Part shown: piece after piece, positions 14,230-23,170 of the stretch
How the letters are laid out: every line of letters starts with the position of its first letter
Position numbering within the stretch: position 1 is the first letter of the stretch
NCBI GenBank assembly: GCA_021770095.1
Contig: JAETRQ010000007.1
Location: 1-64,000 of the forward strand
Reading direction: 5' to 3'
DNA: 64,000 bases
Source: Eubacteriaceae bacterium
Lineage (GTDB): Bacteria; Bacillota; Clostridia; Oscillospirales; Acutalibacteraceae
Position numbers and translations under genes: made by a program
Notes under the pieces: generated by a model
What the model saw: only the letters and a program-made list of their open reading frames with translations
Database searches by the model: none
What the model was told of the DNA's origin: nothing

Positions 14230-15735
14230 ATGGAAAAACTTAAGTATTTTGTTAATGGTGAATTCAAGGATTCAAAAACAGATGTATGGTATGACCTGCA
14301 CAATCCGTCAACAGGTGAAATTACAGGTCAGGCACCATGCTGTACAAATAATGAAGTACTTGAAGCCATTGAAGCTGCTAATGCTGCTTATCCTGCATGG
14401 AGAGCAACTCCGGCAAGAAAAAGAACGCAGATTCTTTATAAAGTAAGAGAACTCTTGCTCAAGCATATGGACGAACTCACTATGCTTGTTTGTGAAGAAA
14501 ACGGCAAAACATGGGGTGAAGCTGAAGGCGACGTCGGCAAAGCACAGGAAGGCACAGAACTTGCAATTCAGGCACCGTCACTTATGATGGGTGAAAGTCT
14601 TATGGACGCTTCAACAGGATTTGACACAGTTAAATACCGTGAACCGATGGGCGTTTTTGCAGGAATTGTTCCTGTCAACTTCCCCGCTATGATACCATTT
14701 GGCTGGATGGCACCTGTATGCCTTGCCTGCGGTAATACTATGGTACTCAAAGCAGCATCGCTTACACCGAGAACGGCTATGAGAATCGGTGAGCTTTATA
14801 AAGAGGCAGGTATACCTGACGGTGTAATCAATATTGTTACCTGCTCAAGAAACGAGATTAACACAATCCTTGAACACCCTGATGTTAAAGGAATCACATT
14901 TGTCGGTTCAACACCGGTCGGTCTTAAGATTTATGAAAAAGCTGCTGCTAACGGAAAAAGATGTCAGGCTCTTTGTCAGGCTAAAAACCATGCACTTATC
15001 CTTGAAGACTGTGCACTTGAAAGAACAGTTGCAGGTGTAATCAACTCTGCTTACGGATGTGCAGGTCAAAGATGTATGGCACTTTCATGTGTTGTTGTAC
15101 AGGAATCCATTGCAGACAAATTTGTTGCTGAACTGAAAGCACAGGCACAGAACATCAATTGCGGTCCTGCTTGGGATAAGGCAACGCGTCTTGGTCCGAT
15201 TACTTATGAAAAGCATTATAAAGAAGTGCTTGCAGATATTCAGAAGGGTATTGATGAAGGGGCAACACTTGTGCTTGACGGAAGAAATCCGAAAGTACCT
15301 GAAGGATATGAAAACGGATACTTTGTAGGTCCGACAATTTTTGACAATGTTACAGTAGATATGACAATCGGAAGTGACGAAGTATTCGGTCCTGTTCTTT
15401 GTGTTAAGAGATGCAAAGACTTTGATGAAGGACTTGCAATTATGAACGCAAATCCTTATGCAAACGGCTCTGTTATCTATACACAAAGCGGATATTATGC
15501 CCGCCAGTTTGCAAGATATACAGACGGCGGACAGGTAGGCATCAATGTAGGAATTCCTGTTCCGGTCGGATTCATTCCTTTCAGCGGTCACAAGCAAAGT
15601 TTCTTCGGCGATCTCCACTGCCTTGGCAAGGATGCTTACCGTTTCTTTACAGAAAGCAAATCCGTTACCCAGCATTGGTTTGATGAAGAAGAAAAGAAAG
15701 CAAAAGAAGTTGACACCTGGGATGGCTTGCTTTAA
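14230..15735 (+). CDS. Methylmalonate-semialdehyde-type CoA-acylating aldehyde dehydrogenase
   Basis: The 501-residue ALDH-superfamily enzyme carries the marks of the MmsA/IolA group: FVNGEF near the N-terminus, PVNFPAMIPFGWMAPVCLACGNT in the NAD-binding domain, CQAKNHALILEDC in place of the usual ALDH glutamate segment, and catalytic cysteine motif GCAGQRCMALS. Such enzymes oxidise malonate- or methylmalonate-semialdehyde to acetyl- or propionyl-CoA with NAD, in inositol or valine breakdown. No other iol or valine genes are nearby, so the substrate is open. The gene has its own promoter and a strong terminator. The start follows AAGGGGT. Confidence 0.85.
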   Translation: MEKLKYFVNGEFKDSKTDVWYDLHNPSTGEITGQAPCCTNNEVLEAIEAANAAYPAWRATPARKRTQILYKVRELLLKHMDELTMLVCEENGKTWGEAEGDVGKAQEGTELAIQAPSLMMGESLMDASTGFDTVKYREPMGVFAGIVPVNFPAMIPFGWMAPVCLACGNTMVLKAASLTPRTAMRIGELYKEAGIPDGVINIVTCSRNEINTILEHPDVKGITFVGSTPVGLKIYEKAAANGKRCQALCQAKNHALILEDCALERTVAGVINSAYGCAGQRCMALSCVVVQESIADKFVAELKAQAQNINCGPAWDKATRLGPITYEKHYKEVLADIQKGIDEGATLVLDGRNPKVPEGYENGYFVGPTIFDNVTVDMTIGSDEVFGPVLCVKRCKDFDEGLAIMNANPYANGSVIYTQSGYYARQFARYTDGGQVGINVGIPVPVGFIPFSGHKQSFFGDLHCLGKDAYRFFTESKSVTQHWFDEEEKKAKEVDTWDGLL

Positions 15736-15768
15736 AAGATAATCAATACAAATATTTAAACATACTCA

Positions 15769-15802
15769 ATGCCGTAATGAAAAATCATTACGGCATTTTT
15801 TT
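15769..15802 (+). terminator. Terminator after the aldehyde dehydrogenase
   Basis: ATGCCGTAATGA (15769-15780) and TCATTACGGCAT (15785-15796) form a perfect 12-bp stem with AAAA loop and a T6 tail. This is a textbook Rho-independent terminator. Confidence 0.92.
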
Positions 15803-15832
15803 GCATAAAATATTAAATAAATTTTAGTCTGA

Positions 15833-15877
15833 TTTGTACAAAAATACCATTGACTTTTGTACAGATTGTACTAAAAT
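15833..15877 (+). promoter_or_regulatory. Promoter of the iron alcohol dehydrogenase with GTACA operator candidates
   Basis: TTGACT (15850-15855) and TAAAAT (15872-15877) are 16 bp apart. The spacer holds the inverted repeat GTACA-GAT-TGTAC (15859-15871). A second palindrome, TTTGTACAAA, lies just upstream (15833-15842), 26 bp away. A dimeric repressor or redox-responsive regulator could bind both. The regulator is not identified. Confidence 0.6.
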
Positions 15878-15911
15878 ATAGCTGTTAAATTTTTATCAAA
15901 GAGGAAGATAT

Positions 15912-17066
15912 ATGGGAAATCAATTTATTATGCCAAAACAAGTTTTTTACGGAGAGAATGCACTGCAAAATGCATCTGAATCATTTTCTGCTCTCGGTAA
16001 AAAAGCACTTATAGTCACAGATCCGATGATGGTAAAACTCGGCAACACAAAACTTGTTACCGATATTCTTGATAAAAATAAAATTGAATATTCAATATAT
16101 GACCAAATCACAGGCGAGCCTACTGATAAAATGATTGAAAGCGGTGTAAAAATATACCGTACAGAAAAATGCGACTTTCTTATAGCCGTGGGAGGCGGTT
16201 CACCGATAGATTCCATGAAAGCAATCGGTGCCATTATAACGAACGGAGGCTCAATTGACGATTATCTCGGCAAAATAATCACAATACCGACTCCGCCGAT
16301 GGTTGCAATTCCAACCACTAGCGGAACAGGTTCCGAAGCAACACAGTTCACTATCATTACCAATACGGAAAGGGATATAAAAATGCTGCTTAAGGGTGCA
16401 GTACTTATGCCGGACATTGCAATTGATGATCCTGCATTCACAATGACAGCACCAAAAAGTGTTACTGCTGCAACAGGACTGGATGCACTTTGCCATGCTG
16501 CTGAGGCGTACACATCACGTAAAGCACAACCGCTTACAGACGAATTTGCACTCTCTGCAATCAAAAAGATATTCGACAACCTTCCGCTTTGTTATAACGA
16601 AGGAAAGAATACATATGCAAGAGAGCAAATGTCAATTGCAGCATTTCAGGCAGGTGTAGCATTCAATAACGCGTCCGTAACAATCATCCATGGAATGAGC
16701 AGACCCATAGGTGCCCTTTTCCACGTTCCGCATGGTATCAGCAATGCAATGCTGATGGAAAAATGTTTTGAATATATATATAACGGTGCATATGACCGTT
16801 TTGCAAACATGGCAAGAGCGATAGGCAAAGCATCATTTGAAGATAATGATAAAATTGCAGCAGAAAAATTCATCAAGGCATGCAGAGAGATTTGCAGAAT
16901 TTGTGAAATACCTACACTGGCTGAATATGGCATTGACAAAGAAGAATTCTTTGCTGCTATGGATAAAATGGCAGATGATGCAATTGCATCAGGTTCTCCT
17001 GCAAACACAATAAAAGAAATATCCAAAGAGGATATTATAAAGATTTATAAATCACTTTGGAAATAA
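15912..17066 (+). CDS. Iron-containing (type III) alcohol dehydrogenase
   Basis: The 384-residue protein has an N-terminal NAD(P)-binding domain with AVGGGSPIDSMK (about 94-105) and TTSGTGSEAT. A helical metal domain follows with DALCHAAEAYTS and GALFHVPHG, supplying the Asp and His ligands of the catalytic metal. It interconverts an alcohol and an aldehyde or ketone, commonly in fermentation or diol metabolism; the substrate is not predictable. The ATG follows AGAGGAAG. The secreted repeat protein gene starts 26 nt downstream. Confidence 0.92.
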   Translation: MGNQFIMPKQVFYGENALQNASESFSALGKKALIVTDPMMVKLGNTKLVTDILDKNKIEYSIYDQITGEPTDKMIESGVKIYRTEKCDFLIAVGGGSPIDSMKAIGAIITNGGSIDDYLGKIITIPTPPMVAIPTTSGTGSEATQFTIITNTERDIKMLLKGAVLMPDIAIDDPAFTMTAPKSVTAATGLDALCHAAEAYTSRKAQPLTDEFALSAIKKIFDNLPLCYNEGKNTYAREQMSIAAFQAGVAFNNASVTIIHGMSRPIGALFHVPHGISNAMLMEKCFEYIYNGAYDRFANMARAIGKASFEDNDKIAAEKFIKACREICRICEIPTLAEYGIDKEEFFAAMDKMADDAIASGSPANTIKEISKEDIIKIYKSLWK

Positions 17067-17092
17067 AATTTATATTAAAAAGTTGAGGTATA

Positions 17093-18232
17093 ATGGAAAT
17101 GACAAAGAAAATATTATCAATCGTTCTGGCGACTTTAATATTCATTACCGCATTCCCGATTTCAACTTTAGCGGCAACACATTGTACAAATAACAACAAT
17201 CATGCTGTACGCTGCGGCAATACGGGAAAATGGTTCAAAGACTTTGACGAGGCAGAGGCGTATTGCATTTCTGTACAAAAGAGTTGGAAAGACAAATATG
17301 AAAAAGGCGAAATTTCCGAAAATGAATACAAACAAAAATGCCCTACCGGTTACTCTGCAGTCGGCTGTCACTACTGTGGCAAATGCACAAGTGATTTCTA
17401 CTACGAAGCAATGTGGATAAAGTCAGGCAGTCGTTGGTGGTACAGATATAAAGACGGTTTGTATACTAAAAATGACTGGGCAAAAATCAATGGTAAATGG
17501 TATTATTTTGATAACAGTGGCTGGATGCTGACAGGTTGGCAAAATATTGATAACAAACGCTATTACTTATCATCAAGCGGAGCAATGGTTACAGGCTGGC
17601 AGGAAATCAACGGCATCTGGTATTTCTTTGAGAGTTCAGGAGCAATGAGCCGCAACAGAAAAATCGGAAATTACTACGTTGACGGCAACGGCAAAAGAGT
17701 GGACAAAATCAAATATGAACCATCATGGATTAAAACAGGAAACCGCTGGTGGTTCAGACATGCAGACGGTTCATACACAAAAAACAACTGGGAATATATC
17801 AACGGATGGTATCACTTTGACAATAAAGGATGGATGCAGACAGGCTGGCTGAAGATTGGAAGCAGATGGTATTATCTTGCATCAAACGGTGCAATGAAAA
17901 CCGGTTGGCAGAAAATCGGCGGAGCATATTATTACTTTGACGATTCAGGTGTAATGAAAAGCAACTGCTGGATTGATGAATATTACGTAAATTCCAGCGG
18001 TAAATGGACGACATCAAATGACCACTATGTGCCTTGCGGAAATTCGCATAAGTGGTTTAACAACAAATATGACGCTGAAACATATGTGCACGAAGTCAGC
18101 GCCAAATGGAACCACAAAAAAGAAACCGGCGAGATAACATGGGACGAATATATTAAAAACTGCCCCGGTGGTTATGAATGCTGGTCTTGCGGTCATTGCG
18201 GCAAATGGACACTGAATTTTAAATACGACTGA
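17093..18232 (+). CDS. Secreted protein with cell-wall/glucan-binding repeats between two Cys-rich modules
   Basis: The 379-residue protein has a signal peptide (about 1-28). Repeats of the CW_binding_1 type follow in two blocks (about 108-200 and 208-310), with aromatic/Gly units such as GWMLTGWQNIDNKRYYL, GAMVTGWQEI and GWMQTGWLKIGSRWYYL. These repeats bind choline-decorated teichoic acid or glucan in other Gram-positives. A Cys-rich module of about 65 residues (RCGNTGKWF ... CHYCGKC) precedes the repeats, and a clear copy (PCGNSHKWF ... CGHCGKW) ends the protein. No catalytic domain is seen. A strong hairpin follows the stop. Confidence 0.82.
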   Translation: MEMTKKILSIVLATLIFITAFPISTLAATHCTNNNNHAVRCGNTGKWFKDFDEAEAYCISVQKSWKDKYEKGEISENEYKQKCPTGYSAVGCHYCGKCTSDFYYEAMWIKSGSRWWYRYKDGLYTKNDWAKINGKWYYFDNSGWMLTGWQNIDNKRYYLSSSGAMVTGWQEINGIWYFFESSGAMSRNRKIGNYYVDGNGKRVDKIKYEPSWIKTGNRWWFRHADGSYTKNNWEYINGWYHFDNKGWMQTGWLKIGSRWYYLASNGAMKTGWQKIGGAYYYFDDSGVMKSNCWIDEYYVNSSGKWTTSNDHYVPCGNSHKWFNNKYDAETYVHEVSAKWNHKKETGEITWDEYIKNCPGGYECWSCGHCGKWTLNFKYD

Positions 18233-18286: not shown

Positions 18287-19084
18287 TTATTTTGCCAAAT
18301 CGCCGACGAGCATCATGAAGTCACCAATCTGTACACCAAACTCAGGTGCACCTTCCATAATCAACTGCTGATTTGCAGTCATCTGGAACATATCACCTGT
18401 ACCCAAGAGGATTTTAAGTGCAGATGTTGCGCAATCAAATTTCATACAAAAGAACGGTTTTGCTCTTTTGTATTCACCTCGTCCTGCTCTTGATTTCCCT
18501 GCCTTAACACGCATATATGCGGTACACTCAGGATGGCCCTCAACAGCCCACTGATAACAACGGTCCGGGCTTTTTACTGCCCAATCATGAACAGCAGGAT
18601 GCCCCATTTTGTTAAGTTGTGAAATACCTGATGAAAGCAGATAAAAATACAGTTTACACAGAAGAAGAGAAAGTTCTTCATCATCCTCAGGTGGTTCTGC
18701 AATACCCAAAAGAGAGGACATTTTAAGCAATACCATCATAAACTTAATAAATTTACCGAATGACTTGATTTTCATTTTTGGAAGCGAAGTCATTTTTCCT
18801 TTGAAAAATTCGTTCATCTTTTCAAGAGAAGAAAATTCAAGTTCTGCATCAATTTTTTCCTGTCCCAGATATTCACCGAGTTTAACACTCCACTCACCGT
18901 TTTCAACAATAAAATGAGTGGCCTCCTTTTCCTCAGCGTTTTTCTTGGCAGATACCTGATATATTGCATTGACGCCTTCGAACTTCTTTTTAAGTTCAGG
19001 AACATCCGTAGCAATCGTCTTGAGCAACGGCAATGCCGCTGCCATAAAGACTTTATTCGTATAACGAGTCATATCGCTTGCCAT
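18287..19084 (-). CDS. SCP2-like (sterol-carrier fold) protein, last gene of the SCP2/aminotransferase/transketolase operon
   Basis: The 265-residue protein appears to contain two SCP2-like stretches. One is near 60-120 (IDAELEFSSLEKMNEFFKGK). The other is at the C-terminus (ATSALKILLGTGDMF ... MLVGDLAK). The SCP2 fold binds lipids or other hydrophobic ligands in a tunnel. The family call rests on pattern resemblance and is moderate. No signal peptide or membrane helix is present, so it should be cytoplasmic. It is fifth and last in a tightly spaced operon and resembles in layout the protein encoded first (22338-23105). The ATG at 19084 follows AAAGGAG. Confidence 0.65.
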   Translation of the reverse strand: MASDMTRYTNKVFMAAALPLLKTIATDVPELKKKFEGVNAIYQVSAKKNAEEKEATHFIVENGEWSVKLGEYLGQEKIDAELEFSSLEKMNEFFKGKMTSLPKMKIKSFGKFIKFMMVLLKMSSLLGIAEPPEDDEELSLLLCKLYFYLLSSGISQLNKMGHPAVHDWAVKSPDRCYQWAVEGHPECTAYMRVKAGKSRAGRGEYKRAKPFFCMKFDCATSALKILLGTGDMFQMTANQQLIMEGAPEFGVQIGDFMMLVGDLAK

Positions 19085-19123
19085 AAATAATACACTCCTT
19101 TCTTGATGATGTTGATTGGATTT

Positions 19124-20134
19124 TTAGAATTCATCATCCCAAGCATCATCTGCTTCAAAATCTGCGTGCATCATTTCTGAAATTGCTTCGTTAATACCAT
19201 TCGCATCAATCTTAGCAATTGCAAGCAAATCTTCCTGCAATCCGATTGTTGAAAAAGCATCTTGATGGCCGAGCATTTTGAACGCACAAGCCTTTCCTGA
19301 TTTTGCAACAACTTCTGCAACTGCTGAACCGAGACCGCCCATAACTTCATGGTCTTCAACAGTGATAATACGGCGTGTATCCATTACTGCTGAAAGTACT
19401 GCCTCTTCATCAATCGGTTTAATTGTATGCATATTGAGGACACGGACTTTGAGCCCTGCATCAGCCTCAGCCATACGGGCAGCCTGCATTGCCTCAAATA
19501 CACACGAACCACAGGCAATAACAGTAATATCCGTACCGTCATTCATAAGAGAAGCCTTTTTATAATCAAACTTACAGTCATCAATATTTTTATAAATAAC
19601 CTGATCAAATCCACGGTTAATTCTGATATAAACAGGACCCGGAATATCATAAGCAGCCTTAACTGCATGATACGTTTCTGAACCGTCACAAGGACAGATA
19701 ACAGTCATATTAGGAAGAGATCTCATACAAGCCATATCTATAAGAGAATGGTGTGTTGAACCTGCCTGACCAAAAGAAGTACCTGCGTGAGTAGCAATAA
19801 TTTTTACCGGAACATTCTGATAACAAATATCAGTATGAATCTGGTCAAGAGAACGTGCTGCTGTAAAAATTGCAAAAGTAGAAGCAAATGGAATCAAGCC
19901 GTTTTTCGCCATACCTGCTGCAACACCAAACAAGTTCTGTTCAGCAATACCTACATTGAAAAATCTGTCAGGGAAATGTTCACCGAACATACCGATTTTG
20001 GTTGACTTGGCAAGGTCTGCAGTAAGGGCAACAACATCCTTATGTTCTTCACCAAGTTCACACAGAGCAATACCGTAACATTCAGCAGTTGAAAGTTTTG
20101 TGGTATCAGTCATTGTATATGTCATACCGCCCAT
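19124..20134 (-). CDS. Transketolase, C-terminal subunit (split transketolase)
   Basis: The 336-residue protein comprises the pyrimidine-binding and C-terminal domains of a thiamine-diphosphate transketolase. The cofactor-activating glutamate is in NVGIAEQNLFGVAAG, THAGTSFGQAGSTHHS follows, and the C-terminal part has RIITVEDHEVMGGLGSAV. It must pair with the N-terminal subunit encoded three bases upstream. Split transketolases transfer two-carbon ketol units between sugars or related aldehydes. The genetic setting (aminotransferase, SCP2-like proteins) differs from a housekeeping pentose-phosphate transketolase. The AAGGAGGCG site lies at the end of the upstream gene. Confidence 0.9.
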   Translation of the reverse strand: MGGMTYTMTDTTKLSTAECYGIALCELGEEHKDVVALTADLAKSTKIGMFGEHFPDRFFNVGIAEQNLFGVAAGMAKNGLIPFASTFAIFTAARSLDQIHTDICYQNVPVKIIATHAGTSFGQAGSTHHSLIDMACMRSLPNMTVICPCDGSETYHAVKAAYDIPGPVYIRINRGFDQVIYKNIDDCKFDYKKASLMNDGTDITVIACGSCVFEAMQAARMAEADAGLKVRVLNMHTIKPIDEEAVLSAVMDTRRIITVEDHEVMGGLGSAVAEVVAKSGKACAFKMLGHQDAFSTIGLQEDLLAIAKIDANGINEAISEMMHADFEADDAWDDEF

Positions 20135-20137
20135 TGC

Positions 20138-21031
20138 TTACGCCTCCTTTTCTGCACGCTCACAGCGTTCTTTATAATATTTATCAAGGCTTTCAGCAGC
20201 CTGTTTTTCCATTGCATCATCAAGTGAGCCGTAATGCCAGAGGTAATTGTCTTTCATAAAGTCAACACCTTCACCCTTGAATGTATCCATAACAATTGCA
20301 GTCGGCTTATCTCCGCCGTCCTGATGATTTTTGATGGAAGCCTCGATAGCATCGTTGAGTTCTTTGATATTATGACCGTCTACGCGAATCACATTAAAGC
20401 CGAATGCTTCAAACTTTTTATCGACAGGTTCAACCTTCATTTCATCGTCAACTCTTCCGTCAATCATACATTTGTTGATGTCCGCAAGAACCACAACATT
20501 GGAAAGTTTGAACTGTGCAGCACTCATTGCTGCCTCCCAATTTGAACCTTCATTCAGTTCACCGTCACCGGTCAAAACAAAATTCATATAATCAATGCCT
20601 TTCACTTTTCCGGCAAGGGCAAAACCTACAGCCAATGAAAGACCATGACCCAATGAACCTGTTGAGCAGTCAGCACCTTTAACCTTATTGCAGTCAAGAT
20701 GCATACCAACTTTTGCTCCGGTAAGATTGAATATCTTTAACTCATCAACCGGGAAATAACCAAGATCACAAAGAATAGGTGCATAACCTACTGCACAGTG
20801 CCCTTTAGACAGAATAAATCTGTCTCTGTCTTCCATATCCGGATTAGATGGATCAATCTTCAAAAAACGATAGTACAATGTGACCATTGCATCCATTGCA
20901 CTGAGTGAACCTCCAATGTGACCTGAACCGCCCCAAATTGCTGTTTGGATAGCCATTCTTCTCATTTCGTCCGCCTTTTTCTCGAGACGGAGCCATTCTG
21001 ATTTATCAAATGGCTTGTAATTAGCAGGCAT
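20138..21031 (-). CDS. Transketolase, N-terminal subunit (split transketolase)
   Basis: The 297-residue protein is the thiamine-diphosphate (PP) domain half: GGSGHIGGSLSAMDAM near the N-terminus, DRFILSKGHC, GSLGHGLSLAVGFAL, and the Mg/TPP motif GDGELNEGSNWEA ending near N at DINK. It forms the active site with the C-terminal subunit encoded directly downstream. It lies 19 nt downstream of the aminotransferase gene in the same operon. Confidence 0.9.
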   Translation of the reverse strand: MPANYKPFDKSEWLRLEKKADEMRRMAIQTAIWGGSGHIGGSLSAMDAMVTLYYRFLKIDPSNPDMEDRDRFILSKGHCAVGYAPILCDLGYFPVDELKIFNLTGAKVGMHLDCNKVKGADCSTGSLGHGLSLAVGFALAGKVKGIDYMNFVLTGDGELNEGSNWEAAMSAAQFKLSNVVVLADINKCMIDGRVDDEMKVEPVDKKFEAFGFNVIRVDGHNIKELNDAIEASIKNHQDGGDKPTAIVMDTFKGEGVDFMKDNYLWHYGSLDDAMEKQAAESLDKYYKERCERAEKEA

Positions 21032-21050
21032 AAATTTTCCCCCTTAAATA

Positions 21051-22322
21051 TTATTTTAAATTTAATTCAGGATGATTTTTGGCAACAACACCAAAAGCAT
21101 CCTCTGCAATATCAATAGCGAGTTTAACATCTTCATCCGTAATTGCAGCATTGATAAAGTGATTGTGATGAGAAGCAAGGAACAAGCCCCTTGATACACA
21201 TTCTGCAATCCATTCCTGATGAAGCATAAGGCTGTCATCATTTGCTATTCTGAGATAGAACAATGCAGGCTCACCCGAAACAACAAGGTTAAAACCATGT
21301 TCCTTTGCTGCTGCTTTGAAGCCGTCGGTTATTTCTGTACCGATTTTTCTAAACATAGTCGGTATATCCAATTTCTTCATTTTAGGAATACATGCAAGGC
21401 AAGCAGCAAACGGTTCGGCACTCATCCAATAAGAACCTGTATAAACTACGGAAGAAGCAGTATTCTTCATATGTTCCTGACCGCATACTGCAGACATATT
21501 ATAGCCATTTGCAAGAGCTTTGCAGAAACAGATGAGGTCTGCCTTAAAGCCGTAATAATGGTCCGAACCCTGAATATCAAGTCTGAATCCGGTACGAACA
21601 TCATCAATAATAAGAACCATTCCGTGGTCATCACAGAACTTACGTACCTTTGCCCACTGCTCTTTGGTAGCACATTCATTATCCTTGAAGTTGCCGTGGT
21701 CATAAGGCTGAGCAATCAAACCTGCAACATCTCCGCCGCAAGCATCATAAGCAGCCTGCATAGCATCAATGTCAAACCATGGAACAACAATGTTGTTTTC
21801 AACTTCTTCAGGAAGGATTCCCGGATAGTCAATCTTTTGTGCCCACTGGAAATCGCCGTGATAATATCCCTTAAAGAACATCATTTTCTTTTTGCCTGTA
21901 TGTGCACGTGCACACATTACGCTGAAAGTGGTTGCGTCTGAACCATTCTTCATAAAAAAGGCCCAGTCGGCACTTGCAACAGTATCTTTAAGAAGTTCTG
22001 CACATTCAACCATTTTGTATGAAGGCGAAGTTGTACAATTCCCTGTTTTCAACTGCTCCATTGCAGCAGCATCAACATCATCGTCACAATAACCGAGAAC
22101 ATTCGGACCGTAAGCACACATAAGATCAAGGTATTTATTTCCATCTACATCCCAAAAATATGTACCCTTGGCTTTCTGAGACATAAGAGGCCATTTTGTG
22201 ATAGGAAGGAACAGACCTTCTGACGGACCGAGATGTCCGTAAACACCTGACGGAATTGCATTTAAAGCTCTTGAAAACCACTCCTGTGATTTTTCATGTT
22301 TATATTCAGGAAATTTACTCAT
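21051..22322 (-). CDS. Class III aminotransferase, glutamate-1-semialdehyde aminomutase-like
   Basis: The 423-residue fold-type I PLP enzyme has motifs of the HemL-like group: KNGSDATTFSVMCARAHTGK, the PLP-phosphate/ring region IIDDVRTGFRLD, and the Schiff-base lysine in LICFCKALANGYN. HemL itself is unlikely because no tetrapyrrole genes accompany it; the neighbours are a split transketolase and SCP2-like proteins. A plausible role is transamination of a keto or aldehyde product made or used by the transketolase, but the substrate is unknown. The ATG follows GGAGGTATAACAAC. Confidence 0.87.
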   Translation of the reverse strand: MSKFPEYKHEKSQEWFSRALNAIPSGVYGHLGPSEGLFLPITKWPLMSQKAKGTYFWDVDGNKYLDLMCAYGPNVLGYCDDDVDAAAMEQLKTGNCTTSPSYKMVECAELLKDTVASADWAFFMKNGSDATTFSVMCARAHTGKKKMMFFKGYYHGDFQWAQKIDYPGILPEEVENNIVVPWFDIDAMQAAYDACGGDVAGLIAQPYDHGNFKDNECATKEQWAKVRKFCDDHGMVLIIDDVRTGFRLDIQGSDHYYGFKADLICFCKALANGYNMSAVCGQEHMKNTASSVVYTGSYWMSAEPFAACLACIPKMKKLDIPTMFRKIGTEITDGFKAAAKEHGFNLVVSGEPALFYLRIANDDSLMLHQEWIAECVSRGLFLASHHNHFINAAITDEDVKLAIDIAEDAFGVVAKNHPELNLK

Positions 22323-22337
22323 GTTGTTATACCTCCG

Positions 22338-23105
22338 TTAACCTAAATACACAGCAACTCTGTCAAGAATTCTGTTAATATTATCAACCATAGAAATCAT
22401 ACCTGCCATATAAATATTGCCTGCACAAAGTTCTGCCATAGTGGATGCAGTACCTGTGAACAGTCCATAGGCAAGGTCTATGGTTTTAAATTCCATAATT
22501 GCTCTTGGTGTGTCCGGTTTTTCCTTAATCGTTTCAAAATGATGGTCACGGATTCGAAGTGTTGCATAACAAACATCTGTGATACCCATCTGAACATCAC
22601 CGTCAACAGTATAAAGAGCAGATTGCTTTGAAATCGAGTCAGAATTGGCAAGAGCAGACAAAGCCCCTGAAATTGTGTAGAAGGTTAATATTGTTGACTC
22701 TTCAAAAAATGCCCTGTTCTTCAAATCTTCCTCATTTGGCATTAAAAGTTGTGTAAGTCTGTTTGTCAGCTTTGTAAACGGACCGAGTAAAAATGCAAGC
22801 ACCTGCGGTGCATTCTTTACAGGCATACCCGGTTTGCTGTTATCAATAAGAGCATTGAATTTTTCAGGTGAAGAAAAATTCATCTTACAGGTGCAGCCAT
22901 AACTGCCTTCACTCATTTTGCAACCGTCTTTGGTAAAATGGAAAGTACAGCAAGGACCGCCGGTTACATCAAAACATAAAGAAACAGGTTTCTTCAGTGA
23001 CGCACAAACAGATTTAGCCTGTTCATCAATTTCACAAAGATTTTCAAGGGTTGCAAGCACGCCGTACATATTAACATACGCCATTGCTTTTGCTTCTTTA
23101 ACCAT
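22338..23105 (-). CDS. SCP2-like protein, first gene of the operon
   Basis: The 255-residue cytoplasmic protein has a Cys-rich N-terminal half (GGPCCTFHF, GCTCKMNFSSPEKFNALI). The C-terminal stretch IMEFKTIDLAYGLFTG ... DNINRILDRV has the look of an SCP2 domain. The architecture parallels the protein encoded last in the operon. The start is the ATG at 23105, with AAGGAGAAGATT directly upstream; a longer frame exists but would begin upstream of this site. A strong promoter lies at 23142-23170. The next gene is 15 nt downstream. No function is claimed beyond possible binding of a hydrophobic ligand. Confidence 0.65.
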   Translation of the reverse strand: MVKEAKAMAYVNMYGVLATLENLCEIDEQAKSVCASLKKPVSLCFDVTGGPCCTFHFTKDGCKMSEGSYGCTCKMNFSSPEKFNALIDNSKPGMPVKNAPQVLAFLLGPFTKLTNRLTQLLMPNEEDLKNRAFFEESTILTFYTISGALSALANSDSISKQSALYTVDGDVQMGITDVCYATLRIRDHHFETIKEKPDTPRAIMEFKTIDLAYGLFTGTASTMAELCAGNIYMAGMISMVDNINRILDRVAVYLG

Positions 23106-23141: not shown

Positions 23142-23170
23142 ATTATAGCACATATATATAACTTTATCAA
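23142..23170 (-). promoter_or_regulatory. Promoter of the five-gene SCP2/aminotransferase/transketolase operon
   Basis: On the minus strand TTGATA (23170-23165) and a perfect TATAAT (23147-23142) are 17 bp apart, about 37 nt before the ATG at 23105. No palindromic operator is obvious around it. Confidence 0.75.

Follow-up and report, generated by a model that had tools for sequence, protein, structure and literature searches.

To our knowledge, the described routes run through S1P lyase for the breakdown of sphingoid bases and through serine palmitoyltransferase (SPT) for their synthesis. In the gut, sphingolipids have signalling and antimicrobial functions. The sphingosine kinase/S1P lyase route yields a fatty aldehyde by phosphorylation and a PLP lyase, not by transamination and ThDP chemistry. 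SPT joins an acyl thioester to serine, a chemistry unrelated to that of aminotransferases and transketolases (TK). SCP2 domains bind many lipids, and one of their carriers, UbiJ, is a lipid-binding partner of soluble enzymes. FumI-type aminotransferases use pyruvate to convert hydrolysed fumonisin, and fumonisins are described as resembling sphinganine (PMC9858248). DesAB, the steroid-17,20-desmolase of the gut anaerobe Clostridium scindens, is described as a split transketolase acting on a hydrophobic steroid with a CO-CH2OH end, and the C2 unit is suggested to feed into the pentose phosphate pathway (PMC3735941). A literature search, the broader part of which was judged from titles and the beginnings of abstracts, returned no bacterial sphingoid-base route that joins a transketolase to an aminotransferase.

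The present study concerns a window of 64,000 nucleotides from an Eubacteriaceae bacterium (contig JAETRQ010000007.1, positions 1 to 64,000). As the preliminary description had proposed, it holds a five-gene operon, entirely on the minus strand, and this operon is conserved in gut-type Firmicutes. Gene A (22338-23105) encodes a tandem SCP2-domain protein of 255 aa, and gene B (21051-22322) a class III PLP aminotransferase of the FumI type, of 423 aa. Genes C (20138-21031, 297 aa) and D (19124-20134, 336 aa) encode the N-terminal, ThDP-binding half and the C-terminal half of a split transketolase, the latter with an altered acceptor site. Gene E (18287-19084) encodes an SCP2-type protein of 265 aa. 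The putative promoter upstream of A (23142-23170, minus strand), a sigma-70-like TTGATA-17-TATAAT with an extended TG, is the top-scoring site in its region as a consensus match only. A longer ORF for A from 23153 would run into this promoter, and the 255-aa start was used.

Several neighbours were considered and set aside. Genes for an MMSDH-type aldehyde dehydrogenase, an Fe-alcohol dehydrogenase and a choline-binding protein (14230-18232) are tempting as aldehyde handlers, but they lie on the strand opposite to the operon. Near other operon loci there was no MMSDH or choline-binding match, and the Fe-alcohol dehydrogenase gave two weak matches (26-33%). Four other genes are frequent near the operon in close relatives: glyA (23 loci), a TagB-like gene (24), and trpS and a gene for a class I aminotransferase (29 each). 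They are mostly gone in a more distant locus set and are therefore taken as near-relative synteny rather than as operon partners. No genes supporting a sulfosugar or a plain amino-polyol pathway were recognised by eye among the listed neighbours. A TetR gene lies directly after E in four loci (L100, L113, L171, L172).

B belongs to Pfam Aminotran_3 (PF00202), and both the catalytic Lys of its FCKALANG motif and the DDVR-x-GF/WR motif are kept in all 96 distinct relatives. Among solved class III enzymes, FumI (6hbs; 3e-79) is its closest relative, scoring 270 bits where the runner-up scores 152. The motifs MCAYGPN, KNGSDAT and DDVR-GFR are common to both. FumI deaminates aminopentol (hydrolysed fumonisin), a sphingoid-base analogue and long-chain amino-alcohol, the kind of substrate that we propose for B. 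The identity is, however, just 35.6%, compared with 28.7% to glutamate-1-semialdehyde aminomutase (GSAM). Unlike the operon of B, FumI comes with no mention of a split transketolase or SCP2 partner in the consulted text on FumI-type enzymes (PMC9858248).

C matches Pfam Transketolase_N, and D matches Transket_pyr and Transketolase_C. The best solved match of both is the split transketolase of Carboxydothermus hydrogenoformans (6yak), which has the same two-chain architecture. Together the halves carry ThDP, Mg and ketol-binding residues. Six checked catalytic and cofactor residues of C are kept in 68/68 sequences, and the catalytic Glu of D and the equivalents of H461 and H473 (E. coli TK numbering) in all 69 distinct operon-type sequences. 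The acceptor site differs. The equivalent of E. coli D469 is Ala in 68 and Ser in one of these 69 sequences and never Asp (0/69), and the R358 equivalent is lost in 66/69, Arg remaining in three. By alignment, the 6yak enzyme keeps this sugar-acceptor Asp and Arg, whereas the operon enzyme lacks both, which sets C+D apart from the sugar-phosphate transketolases of the pentose phosphate pathway. Of the residues that we take to form the phosphate site of E. coli TK (S385, H461, R520 and R358), the first three are kept in 69/69, so a sugar phosphate partner for C+D would be possible. Nor is the operon type alone in lacking the Asp: 24 of 27 lower-identity relatives keep it, but L192, L193 and L195 do not. 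Both points weigh against a lipid role. D469T is one step in the engineering of E. coli TK away from phosphorylated acceptors, first to non-polar aliphatic and later to aromatic ones (PMC5073344), and by this analogy the loss of the Asp469 equivalent beside intact catalytic and ThDP residues suggests that C+D may use aliphatic aldehydes.

Family-level annotation by itself would make C+D an ordinary accessory transketolase of the pentose phosphate pathway and B an aminotransferase of the glutamate-semialdehyde type, both acting in sugar metabolism. We consider this highly improbable in view of the altered acceptor site of D, the SCP2 partners, the greater nearness of B to FumI than to GSAM, and the second split transketolase found besides C+D.

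The Pfam SCP2 model matched neither A, which gave one insignificant unrelated match, nor E, which fell into no family. Nevertheless, an SCP2 fold was found in both halves of A and in the C-terminal half of E, in line with the preliminary description of two SCP2-like proteins. When A and E were compared as profiles, the probability was only 51.5% (E-value 1.5e-4). E is possibly double-domain like A. UbiJ and other SCP2-domain carriers share this fold, but A is double-domain, and the partners of A and E are different.

In a family sample of 150 genomes, A occurs in 37, and E and the operon-type transketolase are found together in the same 36 of these 37. E was found in none of the 113 genomes without A, and C-D-E is always accompanied by A (36/36). 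This co-occurrence upholds the earlier expectation that the genes act together. The opposite case, in which the operon-type transketolase stands without the other genes as the only one of its genome, is not seen in this sample: 35/36 genomes have a second transketolase match at E <= 1e-45, and all 36 have E. A adjoins B in the loci examined, except at contig ends and in L053. In G150, G043, G022, G212 and G966, A+B and C-D-E are separate modules, and where C+D is unlinked from A+B, E stays with C+D. Thus, the gene set is modular, [A+B] and [C+D+E], each enzyme having its own SCP2 partner. In eight genomes with A+B (G151-G156, G161, G162), no transketolase match exceeds 45% identity; G748 and G1023 lack both SPT and a transketolase of the operon type. 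B, with A, might on this basis do no more than detoxify sphingoid bases by deamination, while C-D-E would be a lipid ketol enzyme with no relation to it that has come to be linked. The separated modules and the genomes with A+B but without operon-type transketolase agree with such a history. Chance linkage, however, would not leave C-D-E always accompanied by A, and we regard this explanation as improbable.

The nature of the substrate is indicated by neighbours of A+B elsewhere. SPT and KdsR, a 3-ketosphinganine (3-ketodihydrosphingosine) reductase homologue, stand in the same operon as A+B in L160 and L161, both from one genus, and in L162, from another family; enzymes so combined in two genera are expected to concern the same lipid class. 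The neighbouring SPT scores 402 bits to 3a2b/8guh against 255 for KBL and 246 for cysteate acyltransferase. SPT (516 bits; cut-off 640) and KdsR (218; cut-off 400) are the top NCBIfam models, both under their cut-offs. In L160 a TauE/SafE gene adjoins this operon. The kinship of B with FumI, the loss of Asp469 and these shared operons point to sphingoid bases, and the substrate is probably a long-chain amino-diol. A hydrophobic substrate, one of the options foreseen in the preliminary description, is likewise probable. Of its two pathway ideas, amino-ketol lipid synthesis or amino-polyol breakdown, the polyol fits less well than a long-chain amino-diol, and the direction may still be either. 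FumI, the SPT neighbours and DesAB are better precedents than the sulfosugar enzymes it had named.

Another hydrophobic amino-ketol or ketol, such as a steroid side chain, a sulfonolipid base or a 1-deoxy base, could be handled by an operon working in the same manner. The steroid activity described for DesAB (PMC3735941), the lipid range of SCP2 domains and the TauE/SafE gene in L160 would agree with this. Yet a steroid would make the aminotransferase needless, and the neighbouring gene matches SPT over cysteate acyltransferase. DesAB is described with an HSDH and a transporter, whereas C+D have an aminotransferase and SCP2 proteins; only A-E are present in the operon, which lacks the 20-HSDH and symporter of the desABCD type and any other hydroxysteroid dehydrogenase or steroid transporter. 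Such a substrate is therefore quite unlikely. No chain named DesAB was among the PDB matches of C and D.

Our favoured reading, held tentatively and a little short of even confidence, is that the operon is a sphingoid-base module serving most likely in breakdown or detoxification. Through its two enzymes, helped by the two fat-binding proteins, it probably interconverts fatty aldehydes and lipids of the sphingosine type. B would exchange the amine of a long-chain 2-amino-1,3-diol of the sphinganine/sphingosine type with pyruvate/alanine, giving a 1,3-dihydroxy-2-ketone. C+D would cleave this ketol into a fatty aldehyde, the product also of the kinase/S1P lyase route, and a two-carbon unit passed to an acceptor or released. 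A and E would be the lipid carriers, A for B and E for C+D. Sphingoid bases from diet, host or Bacteroides could thus be broken down or detoxified without sphingosine kinase or S1P lyase.

The reverse chemistry would make sphingoid bases without SPT: a ketose or hydroxypyruvate would supply a C2 ketol for C+D to attach to a fatty aldehyde, after which B would aminate the 2-ketone. We consider this unlikely, and slightly more so a variant in which B, with serine as donor, supplies hydroxypyruvate to C+D, fatty aldehyde and serine giving sphinganine and CO2 with the help of two dedicated SCP2 carriers. A hydroxypyruvate donor and a plain aldehyde would fit an enzyme that has lost the Asp, and in most sequences the Arg, with which sugar phosphates are read. 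In the family sample SPT occurs in 0/37 A-bearing genomes (E <= 1e-60), nor does the genome of the window (G000) have it at this threshold or at 1e-20. SPT of at least 52% identity is present in 8/113 genomes without A, and among a set of 31 genomes it is missing in 15/16 of the transketolase type. Besides, Flavonifractor plautii, a member of the Clostridia, is reported to make phytosphingosine (PMC11914097). However, the exclusion of SPT is small (0/37 vs 8/113), G965 has the transketolase operon plus SPT and KdsR, and synthesis leaves B without purpose in SPT+KdsR operons and in A+B-only genomes.

Given a long-chain amino-diol, breakdown is rather likely the direction. We lean to it from one partial genome, G212 (60% complete), where an alanine dehydrogenase (516 bits, cut-off 392) stands behind an Lrp-like gene, divergent from A+B, and the gene for an aldehyde dehydrogenase lies some 70 nt behind C-D-E; both suit breakdown better than synthesis. 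The TetR gene after E and an excess of ceramidase-family matches in A-bearing genomes (20/37 vs 7/113, kinship ignored) also suggest breakdown. Most of these matches are weak and partial; G040 has a full-length ceramidase, and the window's own genome has no match. Ordinary TK makes 3S ketols and natural sphinganine is 3R, so C+D must have altered stereochemistry or use another stereoisomer. Breakdown alone hardly accounts for operons in which A+B are co-transcribed with SPT+KdsR, as the same lipid would be made and deaminated, and the genomes with A+B only or without operon-type transketolase and SPT also count against the favoured reading. So does a mouse study that describes dietary sphinganine label almost only in Bacteroides, with Firmicutes in the unlabelled fraction (PMC7910519).

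If the favoured reading is true, a transketolase-aminotransferase route in uncultured gut Clostridia would connect lipid amines with central carbon metabolism in a new way, and would bear on sphingolipid handling by gut microbes. SPT-independent synthesis, rather unlikely as it is, would give the sphingolipid backbone a second origin, and this in bacteria that are not known as its producers. C+D may represent a natural transketolase family acting on aliphatic aldehydes, an activity that enzyme engineers had to obtain through mutation. Moreover, A+B and C-D-E may provide a simple marker predicting the consumers or producers of sphingoid bases among gut bacteria.

Scanning genome contigs with A, the tandem SCP2-domain gene, recovered 61 loci, of which 59 were titled MAG and several carried gut, rumen or faeces in their source names. 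All five genes (A; B, the class III aminotransferase; C and D, the transketolase halves; and the SCP2-type E) stood together in 41 loci, two of which have an incomplete A. Among the remaining 20, ten met a contig end at most 5 nt past the last gene and three within 340 nt (L050, L055 and L053, the last ordered C-D-E-A); seven carried only A+B despite at least 1.3 kb of spare contig. Among 150 genomes of the window's family, its own counted, A was present in 37 and E in 36, and operon-type D (called at identity ≥58%, the next match being 47%) occurred in the same 36 as E. E was found in none of the 113 A-less genomes, and in the sole genome with A but without E (G077), A lies 1.4 kb from the contig start. 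The co-occurrence of A and E gave a Fisher p of 6e-34 with kinship between genomes ignored. The full operon was found in 18 of 20 stretches taken from the 37 A matches, at about 43-76% identity. The A profile matched 11/295 genomes of the order, 3/391 of the class and 7/398 of the phylum, counts that take in the window's own genome and relatives. Beyond the family's class, G965, G1106 and G1185 carry the full operon, and G937 carries A-B-C and the start of D, cut by the contig end.

Five genomes (G150, G043, G022, G212 and G966) hold A+B apart from C-D-E, E being no more than a 26% match in G022 and G966. Thus, A pairs with B and E with C+D, so each enzyme has its own SCP2 partner. Eight A+B genomes (G151-G156, G161, G162) gave no transketolase match above 45% identity. 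A midpoint-rooted tree built from 40 aminotransferase rows placed four sampled rows of this transketolase-less group in one clade inside the transketolase-linked rows (100/100), and the rows linked to serine palmitoyltransferase (SPT), with one row having neither partner, in another (99/94). Since transketolase-linked rows lie on either side of the root, linkage to transketolase is probably old and the other states derived.

Several further genes adjoin the modules. Related TetR regulators present in two bacterial families (L100:12715-13371, L113:13002-13712, L171:3103-3750, L172:6128-6775, L037:5266-6012), the next gene after E in the first four, are candidates for a dedicated operon regulator. 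pntA-pntAb-pntB-like transhydrogenase genes lie beside A+B or C-D-E in L054, L056, L146 (PntA model 363 bits, cut-off 383) and L175, about three lineages. A second, GSAM-like class III aminotransferase and a class II aldolase-like gene diverge from the operon (L037:6020-8748, L097:2968-5690, L110:4748-7513), and a peptidase M28-family gene beside it (L037:13889-15124, L098:6496-7743, L108:13145-14401) might act as an N-acyl lipid amidase. In the window, plus-strand genes at 14230-18232, convergent with the operon, encode a CoA-acylating methylmalonate-semialdehyde-type dehydrogenase (528 bits, cut-off 449), an Fe-alcohol dehydrogenase and a choline-binding protein.

The closest solved relative of B was FumI (270 bits; next 152 bits), which acts on hydrolysed fumonisin, the parent toxin being like sphinganine (PMC9858248). 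Sphingoid evidence independent of this relationship comes from families of the order other than the window's, where A+B share one operon with SPT and a reductase like KdsR (3-ketosphinganine reductase) in L160 and L161 (one genus) and L162 (another family). The SPT neighbour scored 402 bits to solved SPTs versus 255 to KBL, and SPT and KdsR were the top NCBIfam models for the neighbours, each scoring under cut-off. The pair is located away from A+B in G197, G202 and G965. Among 31 genomes examined, SPT (≥70% identity) occurred in G197, G202, G270, G283, G415 and G965, the last being the only SPT carrier among the 16 transketolase-type genomes of this set. Within the window's family, SPT (≥52% identity) was found in 8/113 A-less genomes (G001, G038, G045, G065, G069, G074, G079, G104) and 0/37 with A; the contrast is small, and SPT can occur there without A+B. 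SPT with a KdsR-like gene was seen in six loci of gut-type Firmicutes (L160, L161, L162, L196, L197, L198).

Sphingoid bases terminate in CHOH-CH(NH2)-CH2OH. Transamination would convert this end to CHOH-CO-CH2OH, a ketol of the kind transketolases cut or make, and its cleavage would release a C2 unit, leaving a fatty aldehyde. The same two-carbon end is what the split-transketolase desmolase DesAB is proposed to take off cortisol (PMC3735941). We infer that B, then C+D, may act in this way on sphingoid bases.

The checked ThDP and catalytic residues of C were kept in 68/68 sequences, and the catalytic Glu and both His of D in 69/69. Residue numbers and roles, those of the E. coli enzyme, were mapped through alignments to the human and Carboxydothermus enzymes. 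The D469 position holds Ala in 68 and Ser in one of 69 distinct operon-type sequences, versus Asp in 24 of 27 lower-identity relatives. The R358 equivalent is lost in 66/69 and kept in 22/27 relatives, the other five being four unaligned and one Ser (L133, probably a DXS). Equivalents of S385, H461 and R520 are kept in 69/69. Engineering along the S385Y/D469T/R520Q path moved the acceptor range of E. coli transketolase away from phosphorylated aldehydes and towards aromatic and non-polar aliphatic ones (PMC5073344). The acceptor of C+D is therefore probably no ordinary sugar phosphate, although it may still be one, given that three phosphate ligands are kept. The other three lower-identity relatives (L192, L193 and L195), from A+B genomes, have another split transketolase type, with Asp at the H461 position, Asn or Leu at D469 and differences elsewhere; they may represent an additional specialised paralogue, or the alignment may have slipped there.

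Weighed together, the evidence makes breakdown of sphingoid bases about twice as likely as synthesis. Three points speak against breakdown: the SPT neighbours of A+B, a sphinganine-labelling study that left Firmicutes unlabelled (PMC7910519), and a transketolase site that would suit hydroxypyruvate plus aldehyde and hence synthesis. Only deamination would give B a role in all three contexts (alone, with SPT and KdsR, with transketolase). In G212 (a MAG, 60% complete), an alanine dehydrogenase gene over cut-off lies behind an Lrp-like gene in divergent orientation to A+B, and C-D-E is followed by an aldehyde dehydrogenase gene. Also favouring breakdown, ceramidase-family matches, mostly weak and partial, occurred in 20/37 A-bearing versus 7/113 other family genomes (over cut-off, 14 versus 4), an enrichment that may reflect clade membership; G040 has a full-length ceramidase, and the window's own genome has no match to the family. 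Proteins of ~480-640 aa that align with just a portion of the neutral ceramidase model occur at L203, L204, L206, L207 and other sites, and some genomes have several of them.

A literature search combining sphingoid base, transketolase, aminotransferase and bacteria found nothing, and broader searches gave no description that we recognised as this gene set. The parts belong to known families; their combination and the proposed route are, as far as we know, new, and sphingolipid synthesis in Clostridia seems under-described.
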